Shown: positions 12,710-64,000 of the stretch, in pieces | Layout: every line of letters starts with the position of its first letter | Position numbering within the stretch: position 1 is the first letter of the stretch | Assembly (NCBI GenBank): GCA_947501695.1 | Contig: CANMWO010000003.1 | Coordinates: 459,001 to 523,000, forward strand | Source of the DNA: an uncultured Sphingomonadaceae bacterium | Lineage (GTDB): Bacteria; Pseudomonadota; Alphaproteobacteria; Sphingomonadales; Sphingomonadaceae | Direction: 5' to 3' | DNA: 64,000 nucleotides | Notes under the pieces: generated by a model | Seen by the model: the letters and a program-made list of their open reading frames with translations, nothing else | Told to the model about the DNA's origin: nothing | Database searches by the model: none | Position numbers and translations under genes: made by a program

Positions 12710-13282
12710 TTGCTGCAAAATCATCCGGTGGAAATAATATATGCAAAATTTTGGACAGTTCTTGCGGTTCTGATGCTGTTGATCGGCTGGACGGTCGTTC
12801 AACCTGATAGCGCAGCAGCGCAGTGCCGTTTATGTGCCGCGGTACCAAGCAGCGCGTCTTCCGCGGCCACTTCTGGAGAGACAGAGACCCCGCTAAACAT
12901 CGAAATTACCGCCAATCTTGATTTTTCCCGGCTTGCTTTGCTCAGTCGAGCAGGTGGTGAAGTGGAACTGGATCCCGAATCGAGACAGCGTCGGATCAGC
13001 GGCGGTATCACCGATCTTGGCGGACTATCTTTGCATGGCGAAGGCCGTCTGACCGGTGAACCGGGACGGCTGGTGCGCGTCCAGTTGCCCGAACGGATCA
13101 CTTTAAGCGCTCCCAACGGCTCGACCGCCGAATTGGTGAAACTCGATACCGATTTACCAGCGCAGGCGCGACTTGACCGCGATGGACGACTGACCTTTTC
13201 CTTTGGTGGCAAGCTTCGGGTGACCGGCAGCGCTAGCGGCCAATTTCGTGGCCGGATCGCTATTACCGCTAATTATGAGTAA
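12710..13282 (+). CDS. Exported DUF4402 domain protein
   Basis: Secreted protein of unknown function. After a hydrophobic signal segment (about residues 13-37, ending SAAAQ) it has two cysteines (CRLC), a low-complexity Ser/Ala linker, and a DUF4402 beta-sandwich domain (about 60-190) with LNIEITANLDFSRLALL at its start and GRIAITANYE at its end. Such domains resemble pilus-type or surface proteins. The start is doubtful: the longest frame uses TTG 12710, GTG 12728 is an alternative, the ATG at 12741 is out of frame, and none has a good ribosome binding site. Confidence 0.72.
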   Translation: MLQNHPVEIIYAKFWTVLAVLMLLIGWTVVQPDSAAAQCRLCAAVPSSASSAATSGETETPLNIEITANLDFSRLALLSRAGGEVELDPESRQRRISGGITDLGGLSLHGEGRLTGEPGRLVRVQLPERITLSAPNGSTAELVKLDTDLPAQARLDRDGRLTFSFGGKLRVTGSASGQFRGRIAITANYE

Positions 13283-13288
13283 GGTGCG

Positions 13289-14317
13289 CTAGCGCAGTCG
13301 GGCAGCTTTTCTGGCGATGGTCAATAATTCCTGCTCAACCAGCACATGGTCCGGCTGACCGCTGCTTTTCAAAGAAATTTCAAGTGCCAAAATCCGTTCA
13401 ATTAGCCGCGCAATATGGGGTGATGACCAGATGTTAAGTTGCCGCGAAAAATTGTCGCGATCCTTCCAAAATACGCTGGGATGGTTGACCAGTTTGCCAA
13501 TGCCAGCCCCCTGGTCAACTTTGGTGCGTAGTTCTGCGAGCTTAGTCAGGTGGCGGAGCATCAATCGGATCAATCCCACTTCGCTGAAGCCAGTGGTGCT
13601 GGCCGCGGCCAGTTCATGGGTCAGCTTTTTGGCATCACCGCTGATCGCTGCGTTGATTAGCAGGCCGAGGTCCTCTTCGTCATTTTCTGCGCCCAGCAAA
13701 GCAAGCAATTCTGTCTCGGCCTCTTGAGGGTTATCCGGAGACGCATCGAGATAAAGTGCGATTTTCTCGACCTCGAGCTTTGCAAGGACCAGATCATTGC
13801 TGGTTAGCGCAGCAATCGCCGCGCCCATATCGCGCGACATTTTCACACCTTCATCGCGGGCCATATTTGATATGGCGGCGACAGCGTCGCCTTGCGAGGT
13901 TTCATAACAGGTGGCAATTAATGCGTCTGGGGCGGCCGCAATTTTTTTGGCTAAGGCGGTTTTGTCCGCCATGCCCGCTGCGACGATGAAAACCGGATCA
14001 CCCTTGGTTTCGCTCGCGAGCAGATTCTCGATTGATGCCGTTGCACGCACCGCTTCGCCGCTGTTGAGGCGGACCATGATGAATCTTTTGTCGCCAAATA
14101 GAGAGGCCGATGTCGCCTCGTCATTCAGCCGGGCGGGGCTTTCGGTAAGGTCGGCTATGGTTAGATCGACTCGTTCTGCTGATGCTGCAAGCGGGGCGGC
14201 CAGTTCATTGGCCAAAGCCTGGCAGCGCGTTGCATTGGGGCCGCAAAGGATGGCAAGACGGATAGCGTCGGGGGCGCTGTGAAAGCGACGGACGATTTCA
14301 TTGTCTTTGACTTTCAC
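13289..14317 (-). CDS. holA: DNA polymerase III delta subunit
   Basis: Clamp-loader subunit that opens the beta sliding clamp. The 342-aa product has the HolA layout: an N-terminal AAA+-like domain without Walker motifs (FHSAPDAIRLAILCGPNATRCQALA), the middle KKIAAAPDALIATCYE segment, and the C-terminal collar domain ending LTIARKAARLR. It begins with GTG. The gene follows lptE after 37 bp, continuing the leuS-lptE-holA order that is conserved across many Gram-negative bacteria. Confidence 0.92.
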   Translation of the reverse strand: MKVKDNEIVRRFHSAPDAIRLAILCGPNATRCQALANELAAPLAASAERVDLTIADLTESPARLNDEATSASLFGDKRFIMVRLNSGEAVRATASIENLLASETKGDPVFIVAAGMADKTALAKKIAAAPDALIATCYETSQGDAVAAISNMARDEGVKMSRDMGAAIAALTSNDLVLAKLEVEKIALYLDASPDNPQEAETELLALLGAENDEEDLGLLINAAISGDAKKLTHELAAASTTGFSEVGLIRLMLRHLTKLAELRTKVDQGAGIGKLVNHPSVFWKDRDNFSRQLNIWSSPHIARLIERILALEISLKSSGQPDHVLVEQELLTIARKAARLR

Positions 14318-54618: not shown

Positions 54619-56142
54619 ATGGCTTTGGGGCCCCGTCTTGACCTGAGGCAAAGCCAATCGCTGGTGATGACGCCGCAATTGCAGCAGGCGATCAAGCTGC
54701 TGGCGTTGTCTAATCTTGAACTTGAAACCTATATTGCCGAAGAGATTGAGAAAAATCCGTTGCTCGATACCGGCGAGCTCAGTGCCGAACCGAAGAGTGA
54801 CGACGGCGGTGAAAATGGCGCTGACCTTCCCCCGGAACCGGGTTCACAAGGCAGCGATGAGATTTTATCTTCTGGTCCAGCTGAAGCTGAATCCCCGCTC
54901 GATATGGCAGGAGATGCAGACCAATTCTCGAACAATAGCCTAAGCGAAAGCGATGGCGCATTGGACGGAGGCCTTGGTTTGAATGGCACGGCTTCCTCGG
55001 GCAGCGGTGCTGTTGGCGGCGAGGCGCCTGATTTTGAGAATATGCTGGTCGCGGAAACGACGCTGGCCGAACATTTGATGGAACAAGCGGGCGCGATATT
55101 ATCGGGCACGGATTTGTTCATTGCCCAGCATCTGATCGACCAGATTGATGAATGCGGTTATTTGCAGGCCGATCTGCTGGAATTTGCACATCGGCTGGGC
55201 GTGCAGCTGGATGATGTGAAACGTATATTGGTTGAGGTTCAAAGCCTCGAGCCGGTGGGCGTAGGTGCTCGGGATCTGGCAGAATGTCTGGCGCTGCAGG
55301 CGAAGGAAGCGGATCGCTATGATCCGGCTATGGCGCGGCTGATTGATAATCTCGAGCTGCTAGCCAAGGGCGCTTTGCCGCAGCTCAAACGCATGTGCGG
55401 TGTGGATGATGAAGATCTGATGGATATGATATCAGAGATCCGGGCCTATGATCCTAAGCCCGGTTGCAAAATTGGCGGGGGCGATGTGCAGGCGGTTGTC
55501 CCGGATATATTCATTGCAGAGCGCGGCGGTAAATGGCTCATTGAAGTGAATAGCGCGACGCTGCCGAAGGTACTGGTGAACCGCACTTATTTCACGGAAC
55601 TGAAAGACGGAGCGCAGGATAAGGCATCGAAGGAATGGCTGAATGATTGTCTCGCCGACGCCAGCTGGCTGGTCAAAGCGCTCGATCAGCGGCAACGCAC
55701 GATCGTCAAAGTAGCCACCGAAATCGTGAAGCAACAAGAAAATTTCTTTCGCGAAGGCGTTGAGCATCTGCGCCCGCTAACGCTCAAAAATGTGGCGGAC
55801 AAGATTGAGATGCATGAATCGACCGTGAGCCGGGTAACATCCAACAAATATCTCTCCTGTTCTCGGGGTACATTTGAACTCAAATATTTCTTCACCAGCG
55901 GTATCCAGTCATCCACCGGCGGCGAAGCAGCGTCAGCGGAAGCGGTAAAGAGTCATATCAAGGCGCTGATCGACAATGAGGATCCCAAGAAGATACTCTC
56001 CGACGACAAGCTGGTTGCGCTGCTCAAAGACAAAGGCTTCGATATCGCGCGCCGGACGGTAGCGAAATATCGCGAAGCGCTTGGCCTTGGCAGTTCGGTG
56101 CAGCGGCGCCGGCAAAAGGCGCTTGAGGGCAAGGCGGCCTAA
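54619..56142 (+). CDS. rpoN: RNA polymerase sigma-54 factor
   Basis: Alternative sigma factor for -24/-12 promoters, active only with AAA+ enhancer-binding proteins. The 507-aa protein has the activator-interacting region I (LDLRQSQSLVMTPQLQQAIKLLALSNLELETYI), an acidic region II (about 60-135), the core-binding region, the HTH (MHESTVSRVTSNKYLSC) and the RpoN box ARRTVAKYREALG that reads the -24 element. It is coupled to lptB. The window also holds a sigma-54 activator (61776) and a matching -24/-12 promoter (63862). Confidence 0.95.
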   Translation: MALGPRLDLRQSQSLVMTPQLQQAIKLLALSNLELETYIAEEIEKNPLLDTGELSAEPKSDDGGENGADLPPEPGSQGSDEILSSGPAEAESPLDMAGDADQFSNNSLSESDGALDGGLGLNGTASSGSGAVGGEAPDFENMLVAETTLAEHLMEQAGAILSGTDLFIAQHLIDQIDECGYLQADLLEFAHRLGVQLDDVKRILVEVQSLEPVGVGARDLAECLALQAKEADRYDPAMARLIDNLELLAKGALPQLKRMCGVDDEDLMDMISEIRAYDPKPGCKIGGGDVQAVVPDIFIAERGGKWLIEVNSATLPKVLVNRTYFTELKDGAQDKASKEWLNDCLADASWLVKALDQRQRTIVKVATEIVKQQENFFREGVEHLRPLTLKNVADKIEMHESTVSRVTSNKYLSCSRGTFELKYFFTSGIQSSTGGEAASAEAVKSHIKALIDNEDPKKILSDDKLVALLKDKGFDIARRTVAKYREALGLGSSVQRRRQKALEGKAA

Positions 56143-61775: not shown

Positions 61776-63170
61776 CTAAGAGGCCCAGCGTTCAATTTTT
61801 CGGTAGAGCGTTGAAGGACTGAGTTTTAGTGCTCTCGCTGCGGCCGGCACATTCCCGTCTTCGCGGGTTAGGGCGCGATCGACGACATAGCGTTCAACTT
61901 CCTCCATCGACATCTTGTCCAACGGATTTATACTAGGTCCGCCGGCCATTTTCTCTAGCTCATTGGGTTGATCGACAGCATTATTAACGTCCCTGGACAA
62001 AATTCCGATCATCTCCGCCGTCAGAACAGCACCTTCGTTCATCACTATCGAGCGTCTGATACGGTTCTGCAATTCGCGGACATTGCCTGGCCAGTCATAA
62101 GCGGCCAATGCCAGTGCTGCGTCACCGTCCAAACTCTGAAAGGATTTGTCTTCTTCTTCCGAAAAGCGGCGCAAAAACTCATTGGCGATCAGGGAAATAT
62201 CATGTCCACGATCACGAAGTGGAGGAATCTCAATAGGGATAACCGCCAACCGATAGAATAGATCTTCCCGAAACCGTCCTTCAGCTACTTCATGGGCCGG
62301 GTCTCTATTTGTTGCACAAACCACGCGCACATCGACCTGTTCAGTGTTTGAACTGCCCACTCGCTGAATGGTTCCAGTTTGTAGAAACCGGAGTAATTTT
62401 ACCTGGAGCTTAATGTCCATCTCGCAGATTTCGTCGAGAAACAGCGTCCCGCCGCTGGCTGCGAGAGCAGCCCCCACTCGATCCGAAGTGGCCCCGGTAA
62501 AGGATCCTTTCATATGACCAAAAATTTCGGACTCAAGCAAATCTGCGGGAATTGCACCACAGTTTATCGCAACAAACGGACCTTTTGCGCGCTTACCCTG
62601 CTTGTGCACCGCTTCTGCGGTAACTTCCTTGCCGGTCCCGCTTTCACCGGTAATGAAAATTGTCGCTTTGCTATCCGCAACATTTTCAATAGCTTTATAC
62701 AGAGCTTGCATTTGCGGCGATTTTCCGATGAATCCATGAAAATTCGTTCGGTCCCGAAGATGTTTAACCGCCCGGACTTCCTGAACCAGTTCACTTTTTT
62801 CACTCGCATTGCGAGCGGTTGTCATCAATCGTTCCGGGGCAATCGGCTTGACCAGAAAGTCGTATGCGCCAGCCTGCATCGCTTTGATCGCACGATTGAT
62901 AGATCCATCGGCCGTTACCACAATCACAGAACTATTTTGTAGATAAGCACTATTCTGTTGTAAAAGGTCCAGACCATCAATGTCAGGCAATTGAAGATCG
63001 AGAAGGATAATAGAATAGGGCTTTTTGGCAGATTGCAGCAATTGCAAGGCCGTTGCGCCGTCATCTGCAATATCTACTTCAAAACCCTCATTCTTAAGCT
63101 GCTCAGAATAGTTGAACGCAAGACTGGCCATATCTTCCACAACCAGCGCATGATGAACGGATTTGGACAT
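61776..63170 (-). CDS. Sigma-54-dependent response regulator, LuxO/NtrC type
   Basis: 464 aa from ATG 63170, which follows the H-NOX stop with a 1-bp overlap (TAATG). Receiver domain: acidic pair Glu12-Asp13 and phospho-acceptor Asp58 in ILLDLQLPDIDG. AAA+ domain: Walker A GESGTGKE (174-181), sigma-54 loop GSFTGA (222-227, a Ser in place of the usual first Ala), Walker B GTLFLDEI (241-248). The Fis-type HTH (about 440-464, NVPAAARALKLSPSTLYRKIERW) resembles LuxO. Upstream of the divergent lipoprotein gene two LuxO-like sites and a -24/-12 promoter are present. Confidence 0.9.
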   Translation of the reverse strand: MSKSVHHALVVEDMASLAFNYSEQLKNEGFEVDIADDGATALQLLQSAKKPYSIILLDLQLPDIDGLDLLQQNSAYLQNSSVIVVTADGSINRAIKAMQAGAYDFLVKPIAPERLMTTARNASEKSELVQEVRAVKHLRDRTNFHGFIGKSPQMQALYKAIENVADSKATIFITGESGTGKEVTAEAVHKQGKRAKGPFVAINCGAIPADLLESEIFGHMKGSFTGATSDRVGAALAASGGTLFLDEICEMDIKLQVKLLRFLQTGTIQRVGSSNTEQVDVRVVCATNRDPAHEVAEGRFREDLFYRLAVIPIEIPPLRDRGHDISLIANEFLRRFSEEEDKSFQSLDGDAALALAAYDWPGNVRELQNRIRRSIVMNEGAVLTAEMIGILSRDVNNAVDQPNELEKMAGGPSINPLDKMSMEEVERYVVDRALTREDGNVPAAARALKLSPSTLYRKIERWAS

Positions 63171-63718
63171 TATGCTGCCGCCGCACTCGGCGGTGCAATA
63201 ATGAACGATGCGCTGAAAGCGGGGGCGTCCCGTTCCCAGCTCACCTCGCGATTGTCGCCATAGTGGATCAAGCATTGTTCAATTAAACCAAAAGCAATTG
63301 CCGCCATTGGTCGATGGGACGAATAGCGCACGATCAATCTGTCACCTTTTTTTTCGGTGCTGACCTGCGGCGGTTGAGCATCTGGATATAGCGTGCATAC
63401 TTCGGTGTGAATATGTGGTCCGACATTGTCCAATAACTCCGACGCATTCTTGTAGCGTGACAGAATCTCGGGAAATAATATGATGAAGCGTGAGAATAGT
63501 GTTCGCCCAAATTGCCGGCTAAGTTCAGAAGCGTCAATCCCGCTGAGTTCGACTGCTGCCTCGATCATCTTGGCGGCATGGGCGGTGGGATAATTCCCTA
63601 CGCTCGTAAATGCACCATTATTGGGTAGATCCGCATTGACCAATACTTTGTCTGCGAATTCGGGCGAGACGGTCTCCTCCATAAACCGAACCAATTCTGT
63701 AAAAATCACGCCTTTCAT
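63170..63718 (-). CDS. H-NOX / heme NO-binding (HNOB) sensor protein
   Basis: 182-aa standalone H-NOX domain that binds NO (or O2) at heme b. The proximal histidine is His102 in LLDNVGPHIHTEVCTLYPD, exactly the canonical position. The heme-propionate motif YxSxR is Tyr132-Ser134-Arg136 (YSSHR), and Pro116 matches the conserved proline. The N-terminal MKGVIFTELVRFMEETVSPEFADKV and GAFTSVGNYP are family hallmarks. AGAGGA lies 7 bp before the start. It is translationally coupled to the sigma-54 regulator; no histidine kinase is in the window. Confidence 0.88.
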   Translation of the reverse strand: MKGVIFTELVRFMEETVSPEFADKVLVNADLPNNGAFTSVGNYPTAHAAKMIEAAVELSGIDASELSRQFGRTLFSRFIILFPEILSRYKNASELLDNVGPHIHTEVCTLYPDAQPPQVSTEKKGDRLIVRYSSHRPMAAIAFGLIEQCLIHYGDNREVSWERDAPAFSASFIIAPPSAAAA

Positions 63719-63762
63719 AGAAATATCCTCTTTTTGATAGCAGCTACCATAGCTCTCGATAG

Positions 63763-63797
63763 TTGCATTTTGCTAATATTCCGTTTGCATTTTGCAA
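63763..63797 (+). promoter_or_regulatory. Two LuxO-like enhancer sites (TTGCA-N3-TGCAA type)
   Basis: The right copy (63785-63797) is TTGCA-TTT-TGCAA, a perfect match to the published LuxO consensus TTGCAW3TGCAA. The left copy (63763-63775) is TTGCA-TTT-TGCTA with one change. The copies start 22 bp apart, close to two helical turns, as expected for a dimer-of-dimers on one face. They lie 65-100 bp upstream of the -24/-12 promoter at 63862, in normal enhancer range. Confidence 0.75.
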
Positions 63798-63861
63798 TTA
63801 ATGACAATTATTTATTGGATGAATTATTGTAACCCACTGATATAATAGAATATATTAATTC

Positions 63862-63877
63862 TGGCATATGATTTGCG
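63862..63877 (+). promoter_or_regulatory. Sigma-54 (-24/-12) promoter
   Basis: TGGCATATGATTTGCG matches the consensus TGGCAC-N5-TTGCA at all core positions: GG (63863-63864) and GC (63875-63876) are 10 bp apart and the T of TGG and the TT before GC are correct; C6 and the last A differ. Transcription should start near 63888, 25 bp before the lipoprotein ATG at 63913. It lies downstream of LuxO-like enhancer sites. Confidence 0.75.
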
Positions 63878-63912
63878 AAGTTGGGGGAAACCCATTGTCA
63901 GGATTTTGAAGA

Positions 63913-64000
63913 TGAATTTGTTTACCCGCCTTATCACATCGCTATCCGTAGTTTCGCTGCTGAGCGCTTGCGCGGCAGGTCCTGCGCCAAGCAATTTGTC
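63913..64000 (+). CDS. Lipoprotein, N-terminal fragment (runs off window)
   Basis: Only 29 codons are visible: MNLFTRLITSLSVVSLLSACAAG, a signal peptide with lipobox LLSAC (acylated Cys20), then PAPSNLS. The mature part is outside the window, so no function can be assigned. Polysaccharide-export (Wza-like) and efflux lipoproteins have similar openings. Its promoter region carries two LuxO-like sites and a -24/-12 promoter, linking it to the divergent H-NOX/regulator pair. Confidence 0.7.

Follow-up and report, generated by a model that had tools for sequence, protein, structure and literature searches.

A probable nitric oxide-responsive phosphorelay at an exopolysaccharide gene cluster of Sphingomonadaceae

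Nitric oxide (NO) is a known biofilm signal. In published accounts, H-NOX sensors act elsewhere through cyclic diguanylate (c-di-GMP; PMC8738867) or through quorum sensing and LuxU (PMC6759604). The closest described systems are those of Vibrio. NO-bound H-NOX of Vibrio parahaemolyticus inhibits HqsK, whose phosphate passes His–Asp–His to LuxU and then to LuxO (PMC6759604). In Vibrio fischeri, HahK, which stands above SypG and the syp polysaccharide in the pathway, is held back by HnoX (PMC12369376). Here we describe a locus from an uncultured Sphingomonadaceae bacterium in which an H-NOX gene and a gene for a LuxO-type, sigma-54-dependent response regulator stand next to a polysaccharide cluster. 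The stretch of DNA analysed, called the window, is a 64-kb segment (C3:459001-523000) of genome G000, which measures 3.6 Mb, and the cluster extends beyond its right edge.

We consider it likely that this locus encodes a self-contained NO-responsive phosphorelay controlling the exopolysaccharide cluster, so that the bacterium's own NO sensor, kinase and activator would probably switch secreted polysaccharide production on or off. All components, from the genes for sensor, kinase and activator to the candidate operators and the polysaccharide genes, fit into 15 kb. The genes, sites, promoters, conservation and correlated losses described below are seen at the level of sequence.

The sensor–activator operon and its cluster

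The H-NOX gene (63170..63718, minus strand) encodes a protein of 182 residues that matches the Pfam model HNOB over its full length (E 2.6e-28, model positions 1-161 of 163), and the first-pass annotation, made from the sequence of the window, was right to call it intact. It had named His102; alignment to the PDB H-NOX 6ocv identifies His104 as the heme ligand. The heme-propionate motif YxSxR, which the annotation had also recognized, is present as Tyr132-Ser134-Arg136. His102, His104, Tyr132, Ser134 and Arg136 are invariant across 22 aligned H-NOX proteins, taken from 22 of the 30 genomes having both H-NOX and the activator; the eight genomes left out include G020 and G211, the latter with a broken H-NOX. 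Residue 141 of the window protein is Ile, at the position that we take to match the distal Tyr140 of the O2-binding Tt H-NOX. The replacement of the distal Tyr by Ile fits NO selectivity, and the protein is predicted to be a heme NO sensor.

A sensor of oxygen or redox state, not NO, acting on a real regulator–polysaccharide link is a very unlikely alternative given the Ile at this position and the retention of His104 and YxSxR in the 22 aligned sequences. What speaks for it is the displaced proximal His of several related copies. In the single H-NOX copy of L080 (G020; 12998-13537) and in the second copies of L174 (10719-11243), L175 (10719-11243), L176 (10717-11241) and L178 (10716-11240), the His is shifted by one residue relative to the proximal ligand, which puts heme binding by those copies in doubt. 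L174, L175, L176 and L178 are Novosphingobium loci with two tandem H-NOX genes.

The regulator gene (61776..63170, minus strand, 464 residues) begins within the H-NOX stop codon, the two genes having one base in common (TAATG), which bears out the tight linkage claimed earlier. The features sought for a LuxO-like group I enhancer-binding protein are found in its receiver, AAA+ and Fis helix-turn-helix regions: the receiver Asp, the GAFTGA-type loop (GSFTGA here), Walker A and B motifs and the Fis helix-turn-helix itself. The best NCBIfam model is LuxO at 531 bits, under its equivalog cut-off of 800, and the best PDB match is LuxO 5ep0 (E 8e-116); by these sequence comparisons the protein is LuxO-like, not LuxO proper. 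Membership of the PrsR/PEP-CTERM regulators (TIGR02915) was rejected, the score of 411 bits falling below the 502.6 that the model requires. In an alignment of 85 regulator rows (67 distinct, some species entering twice) with at least 48% identity to the window protein, lower rows having been dropped, 84 retain the phospho-accepting Asp and every row has the GA/SFTGA loop.

Divergent from H-NOX is a gene for a Wza-like polysaccharide-export lipoprotein of 402 residues (Poly_export E 9.6e-10 for the whole protein). Its 5' end occupies 63912..64000 on the plus strand and it runs on to G000:C3:524120; the ATG is at 63912, one base before the start given in the first-pass annotation (63913). The sequence right of 64000, where the annotation had proposed to look for the target operon, holds a polysaccharide cluster headed by this wza gene, and the suggested tie of NO to surface or export functions is consistent with these sequence assignments. 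The Wza-like gene is followed by genes for a Wzc-like protein (so labelled by length and position, with no Pfam match), a Wzy/O-antigen-ligase protein, three glycosyltransferases, a Wzx-type flippase, a fusion of WecG and a sugar transferase, a hybrid histidine kinase and a PEP-CTERM protein. The kinase gene (L002 14723-17341 = G000:C3:532723-535341, minus strand; PAS, HisKA, HATPase and receiver) lies 10 kb right of the window edge, at the cluster end; L002 positions plus 59000 give window positions. The reported lack of a kinase was an artefact of the window edge.

Among 249 family genomes, H-NOX (PF07700) occurs in 42 and the activator orthologue in 31, the bacterium's own included (51-61% identity; next matches at most 45%). 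H-NOX is found in 30 of the 31 activator genomes versus 12 of the 218 without the orthologue, all these counts being uncorrected for relatedness. It directly adjoins the regulator in 27 of the 31. Conservation of the pair with the lipoprotein, proposed earlier as a check, is borne out: Wza is divergent from the regulator or H-NOX in 25 of the 31, with H-NOX between them in 22 and the regulator itself facing Wza in G020, G204 and G236. The Wzy of the cluster occurs in 25 of the 249 genomes; all have the activator, and they are the same 25 as the divergent-Wza set. In G236 and G020, H-NOX sits at the far cluster end beside the kinase and the regulator is still at wza. A further collection of named relatives (126 found, 80 kept) contributed 58 loci (L121-L178), 54 of them with the activator, 53 with it adjacent to H-NOX and 40 with Wza, many of the contigs being short. 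Genera with the system include Sphingorhabdus, Erythrobacter, Qipengyuania and Novosphingobium.

The sigma-54 factor gene rpoN (54619..56142, plus strand, 507 residues; Sigma54_DBD E 2e-68, Sigma54_CBD 4.9e-54, Sigma54_AID 1.4e-18) is located 6 kb left of the regulator. There are 13 Sigma54_activat matches in the genome, one of which, the regulator discussed here, belongs to the cluster.

Operators and sigma-54 promoters

The operator consensus of Vibrio LuxO is given as TTGCAWWWTGCAA (PMC10162802). Between H-NOX and wza we observe two candidate LuxO-type enhancer sites on the plus strand, TTGCATTTTGCTA at 63763..63775 and TTGCATTTTGCAA at 63785..63797, spaced by 22 bp; the second matches the Vibrio consensus perfectly. 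A sigma-54 -24/-12 element, TGGCATATGATTTGCG, follows at 63862..63877 (plus strand), before wza. The claim of a divergent lipoprotein promoter with LuxO-like sites and a -24/-12 element holds up, and by sequence the locus has a sigma-54 promoter preceded by predicted LuxO-type operators of the TTGCAWWWTGCAA class.

A genome-wide search for the paired-site pattern gave two hits, the wza promoter and the wzx/wecG promoter, both within the cluster; a control with the reversed pattern found none. The single site TTGCANNNTGCAA has six exact places and 160 with at most one mismatch (39 in the reversed control), a frequency that makes single sites by themselves weak evidence. Twenty-two homologous wza/H-NOX regions (6,304 bases) contain 45 strict sites, distributed over 21 of the regions, compared with a mean of 0.49 and a maximum of 4 in 200 dinucleotide shuffles. 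A wza-facing sigma-54 element is present in all 22 (shuffle mean 0.075). These regions are related and hence not independent. Of the 25 wza promoters in the family, the shuffle test took in 22; those of G020, G204 and G236, inspected later, all have the sigma-54 element, for a total of 25 of 25, and two of them have sites. A chance origin of the sites was ruled out by the whole-genome pattern search together with the shuffles.

A second sigma-54 core, facing H-NOX, is found in 21 of the 22 regions (shuffle mean 0.475, maximum 3) with a looser pattern picked after viewing the alignment; the strict pattern found it in 7 of 22. The promoter between wzx and wecG is likewise two-headed. In 23 wzx/wecG regions, 20 examined first and 3 later, a sigma-54 element points toward wzx in 21 and toward wecG in 13, and 18 regions contain a strict site.

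Two further candidate targets lie in the bacterium's own genome. At the PEP-CTERM gene beyond the kinase, two sites together with TGGCATGGAAATTGAA occupy L002 17637-17760; the element overlaps the first ATG of the gene, and a later start is likely. On another contig, a gene for a 99-residue protein (L098 1653-1949 = G000:C1:1047786-1048082) is preceded by a perfect site and, 99 bp on, by TGGCATTGAAGTTGCT. In two genomes of the same genus this gene is located 1.2 kb from the activator, with a promoter of the same kind. The protein has no Pfam match over the cut-off, and its predicted structure is uninformative (mean predicted local distance difference test score, pLDDT, of 46). Simple scans for sigma-70 promoters and terminators gave numbers close to the shuffled expectation.

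The cluster-end kinase and the proposed phosphorelay

In 21 of the 22 clusters having H-NOX beside wza, a PAS-HisKA-receiver protein lies tail to tail after wecG; the twenty-second cluster, in G082, runs off its contig. The window kinase has HisKA, HATPase_c and receiver domains over the Pfam cut-offs, and its last 119 residues include an HRVKG (HxxKG) motif. Seven of these proteins (from the window genome, L059, L060, L065, L067, L068 and L072) have an ATPase domain over the cut-off. No such domain exceeds it in the other 14 of the 21 (L054, L055, L058, L061-L064, L069, L071, L073, L075, L077, L078 and L081), L069 having a sub-threshold match. A hybrid kinase at the end of all related clusters was therefore ruled out. 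Nine of the 14 ATPase-less proteins have an Hpt domain over the cut-off.

The DNA beyond eight of the 14 ATPase-less proteins was read. A kinase with an ATPase region comes directly next in seven (L094, L254, L255, L256, L257, L258 and L259, with L256 seen by tblastn only), and none was found beyond the protein in L260. Six of these kinases were scanned with Pfam: four (L255, L257, L258 and L259) are without a receiver and two have one. Examples of H-NOX-associated PAS-HisKA-receiver-Hpt proteins without the ATPase domain are found at L055 17564-19654, L063 425-2536 and L142 8004-9803. The simplest reading of these sequences is that the hybrid kinase has been split into a kinase and a putative H-NOX-coupled receiver-Hpt relay. 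We found no description of such an ATPase-less relay variant in the open-access literature searched.

The N-terminus of the window kinase carries a coil, RRLARSEAARQEAETLLEDK, that is common to H-NOX-adjacent kinases of planctomycetes, Verrucomicrobia, Bacteroidota, rhodobacters and Limnobacter. A search of the bacterium's own genome at E 1 returned a single match, the window kinase itself. H-NOX, a kinase-family protein and the activator are neighbours in L131, L132, L142, L146, L147, L184 and L187. In the Polymorphobacter-type loci L131, L142 and L147, a coil-bearing ATPase-less protein adjoins H-NOX, beside a large coil-less kinase. Six loci (L131, L132, L142, L146, L147 and L171) have two kinase-family proteins, of about 1200 and about 600-840 residues, beside H-NOX and the regulator, and no polysaccharide cluster is in view there.

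From these arrangements we infer that H-NOX pairs with the cluster-end kinase. NO would bind the heme of H-NOX, and NO-bound H-NOX would dock on the hybrid histidine kinase, probably through the N-terminal coil, and reduce its activity. When NO is absent, phosphate would move from the His of the kinase to the receiver Asp within the same protein, on to the C-terminal Hpt-like domain and finally to the Asp of the LuxO-type activator. The phosphorylated activator may then bind paired TTGCAnnnTGCAA sites and, with RpoN, fire the sigma-54 promoters of its presumed targets: wza-wzc-wzy, the two-headed wzx/wecG promoter, the PEP-CTERM gene beyond the kinase and the 99-residue protein gene on the other contig. 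In most relatives, the further sigma-54 promoter that faces H-NOX would place the operon of H-NOX and regulator under the activator's own control. Where the cluster ends in an ATPase-less PAS-HisKA-receiver-Hpt protein (14 of 21), often beside a separate kinase, H-NOX may gate the relay step. By analogy with Vibrio, from which the sign is taken, NO would lower polysaccharide expression.

The first-pass annotation had considered that the sensor may act directly on the regulator. The one-base overlap of the genes and their adjacency, seen in 27 of the 31 activator genomes of the family and in 53 of the 58 loci from named relatives, would suit such a route, in which the co-translated regulator is reached without a kinase. 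We regard it as highly improbable, and rejected it as the main explanation, on three lines of evidence. A kinase-family protein stands at the cluster end in all 21 clusters in view, or beside H-NOX; the receiver Asp is kept in 84 of the 85 regulator rows, the exception coming from the genome that has no H-NOX and shows no kinase; and H-NOX can lie 10-12 kb from the regulator yet adjoin the kinase (G236, G020).

It is also conceivable, although unlikely, that the PAS domains of the cluster-end kinase make it respond chiefly to some other signal, that H-NOX uses a kinase elsewhere and that NO is one of several inputs to the regulator. Besides the PAS domains, relatives have separate kinases of the membrane type, bearing HAMP or CHASE domains, next to the cluster-end protein, and Vibrio LuxO and SypG take several kinases (PMC12369376, PMC6759604). 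Against this stand the H-NOX-type N-terminal coil, found in only one protein of the bacterium's own genome, the cluster-end kinase, and the adjoining of H-NOX and a kinase-family protein in several relatives.

Natural losses fit the phosphorelay with H-NOX acting through the cluster-end kinase. Among the 31 activator genomes, H-NOX is missing from G204 alone, and no kinase match was found in the 6.7 kb beyond (left of) the wecG of this genome. Its activator has Ala for the receiver Asp and Asp for a conserved Thr, the only such row of the 85, and its wza promoter retains two sites and the sigma-54 element; the locus (L084, G204:C1:159000-178999) thus combines a polysaccharide cluster with a phospho-acceptor-less activator. 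In G130 (L088), counted among the 12 H-NOX genomes without an activator orthologue, H-NOX, regulator and kinase are all fragmentary, with a regulator remnant of 42 residues, and in G211 (L083) both H-NOX and regulator are broken. Joint loss or decay in these three genomes is as expected of a single pathway, as a correlation among few genomes.

Several observations weigh against the proposed phosphorelay or narrow it. The 14 ATPase-less proteins indicate that one hybrid kinase per cluster is not the rule, and slightly lower the likelihood of a single-kinase route. None of the seven cluster-end proteins with an ATPase domain has an Hpt domain over the cut-off, and the C-terminal residues of the window kinase match Hpt weakly (17.8 bits versus a cut-off of 24.6). 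The coil pattern matches only 36 of 71 kinase open reading frames (ORFs) in H-NOX loci, and this after being loosened on viewing example N-termini, the first version having matched none; it matches none of nine near H-NOX-free LuxO homologues. Through their PAS domains the kinases may respond to additional signals. The H-NOX of G020 has Asn, not His, at the His104 position, the G236 wza promoter has no strict site, and the window genome has no H-NOX-facing sigma-54 core, the other 21 regions having one. Six of the 31 genomes (G003, G014, G097, G146, G159 and G211) contain activator and H-NOX and not the cluster; the regulator must serve other genes there, and its targets vary. Finally, the uncoupling in G204 is a single case.

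Comparison with known systems

LuxO-like regulators, 47-59% identical, occur in 73 of 385 genomes of the class (E 1e-110 or better; the bacterium's own and G014 counted) and are common in Alphaproteobacteria. Of 18 loci outside the family, 14 served as controls. A kinase ORF is present in eight of these 14; no H-NOX match was found within several kb on each side in any of the 14, nor the coil in their nine kinase ORFs. At the H-NOX-free loci L249, L250, L240 and L243, the LuxO-like regulators are near paired TTGCA-type sites and sigma-54 elements, and in L249 the sites are near polysaccharide genes. We regard these four loci as part of a wider LuxO-polysaccharide theme. As LuxO-like regulators are common and none of the 14 loci has an H-NOX match, the sphingomonad system is set apart as a variant.

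A broader synthesis, which we offer tentatively and with slightly less than even confidence, is that sphingomonads added H-NOX to a widespread alphaproteobacterial switch of LuxO-like regulator and kinase. The outcome would be a one-locus NO-to-polysaccharide phosphorelay, self-reinforcing through two-headed sigma-54 promoters. In many lineages, the H-NOX partner would have lost its ATPase domain and turned into an NO-gated receiver-Hpt relay that hands on phosphate from a separate membrane kinase, with NO controlling the relay step and not a kinase. One lineage would have lost sensor and kinase, leaving an activator without a phosphorylation site that is perhaps constitutive. The one-locus arrangement makes an NO-to-matrix pathway testable with few deletions, and nature supplies comparisons in the G204 regulator without its Asp and in the relay proteins of relatives that have no ATPase domain.

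We recognized no paper describing the sphingomonad system in the open-access literature, subscription papers falling mostly outside the search. The H-NOX-HqsK-LuxU-LuxO system of V. harveyi and V. parahaemolyticus is alike in its H-NOX, hybrid kinase, LuxO-type activator and, as predicted for sphingomonads, an Hpt step (PMC3759921, PMC6759604) and in the same 13-bp operator class (PMC10162802). It differs in that LuxU is a separate Hpt protein, whereas in sphingomonads the Hpt-like domain appears fused to the kinase or to the ATPase-less relay. Other kinases also feed into Vibrio LuxO, which acts on Qrr small RNAs and quorum sensing; in contrast, the sphingomonad activator sites precede polysaccharide genes of the same locus. 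The HnoX-HahK-SypF/LuxU-SypG-syp system of V. fischeri resembles the proposed phosphorelay in placing the sigma-54 activator for a polysaccharide locus under NO, H-NOX and a kinase, but hnoX and hahK form their own operon and SypF/LuxU provide the relay (PMC12369376). The SypG site is TTCTCANNNTGMDWN (PMC10162802), whereas the sphingomonad sites match LuxO instead. New in sphingomonads, by this comparison, are the apparent Vibrio logic gathered in one locus, the Hpt-like domain of the kinase or relay, the predicted direct targeting of structural genes and the two-headed sigma-54 promoters.

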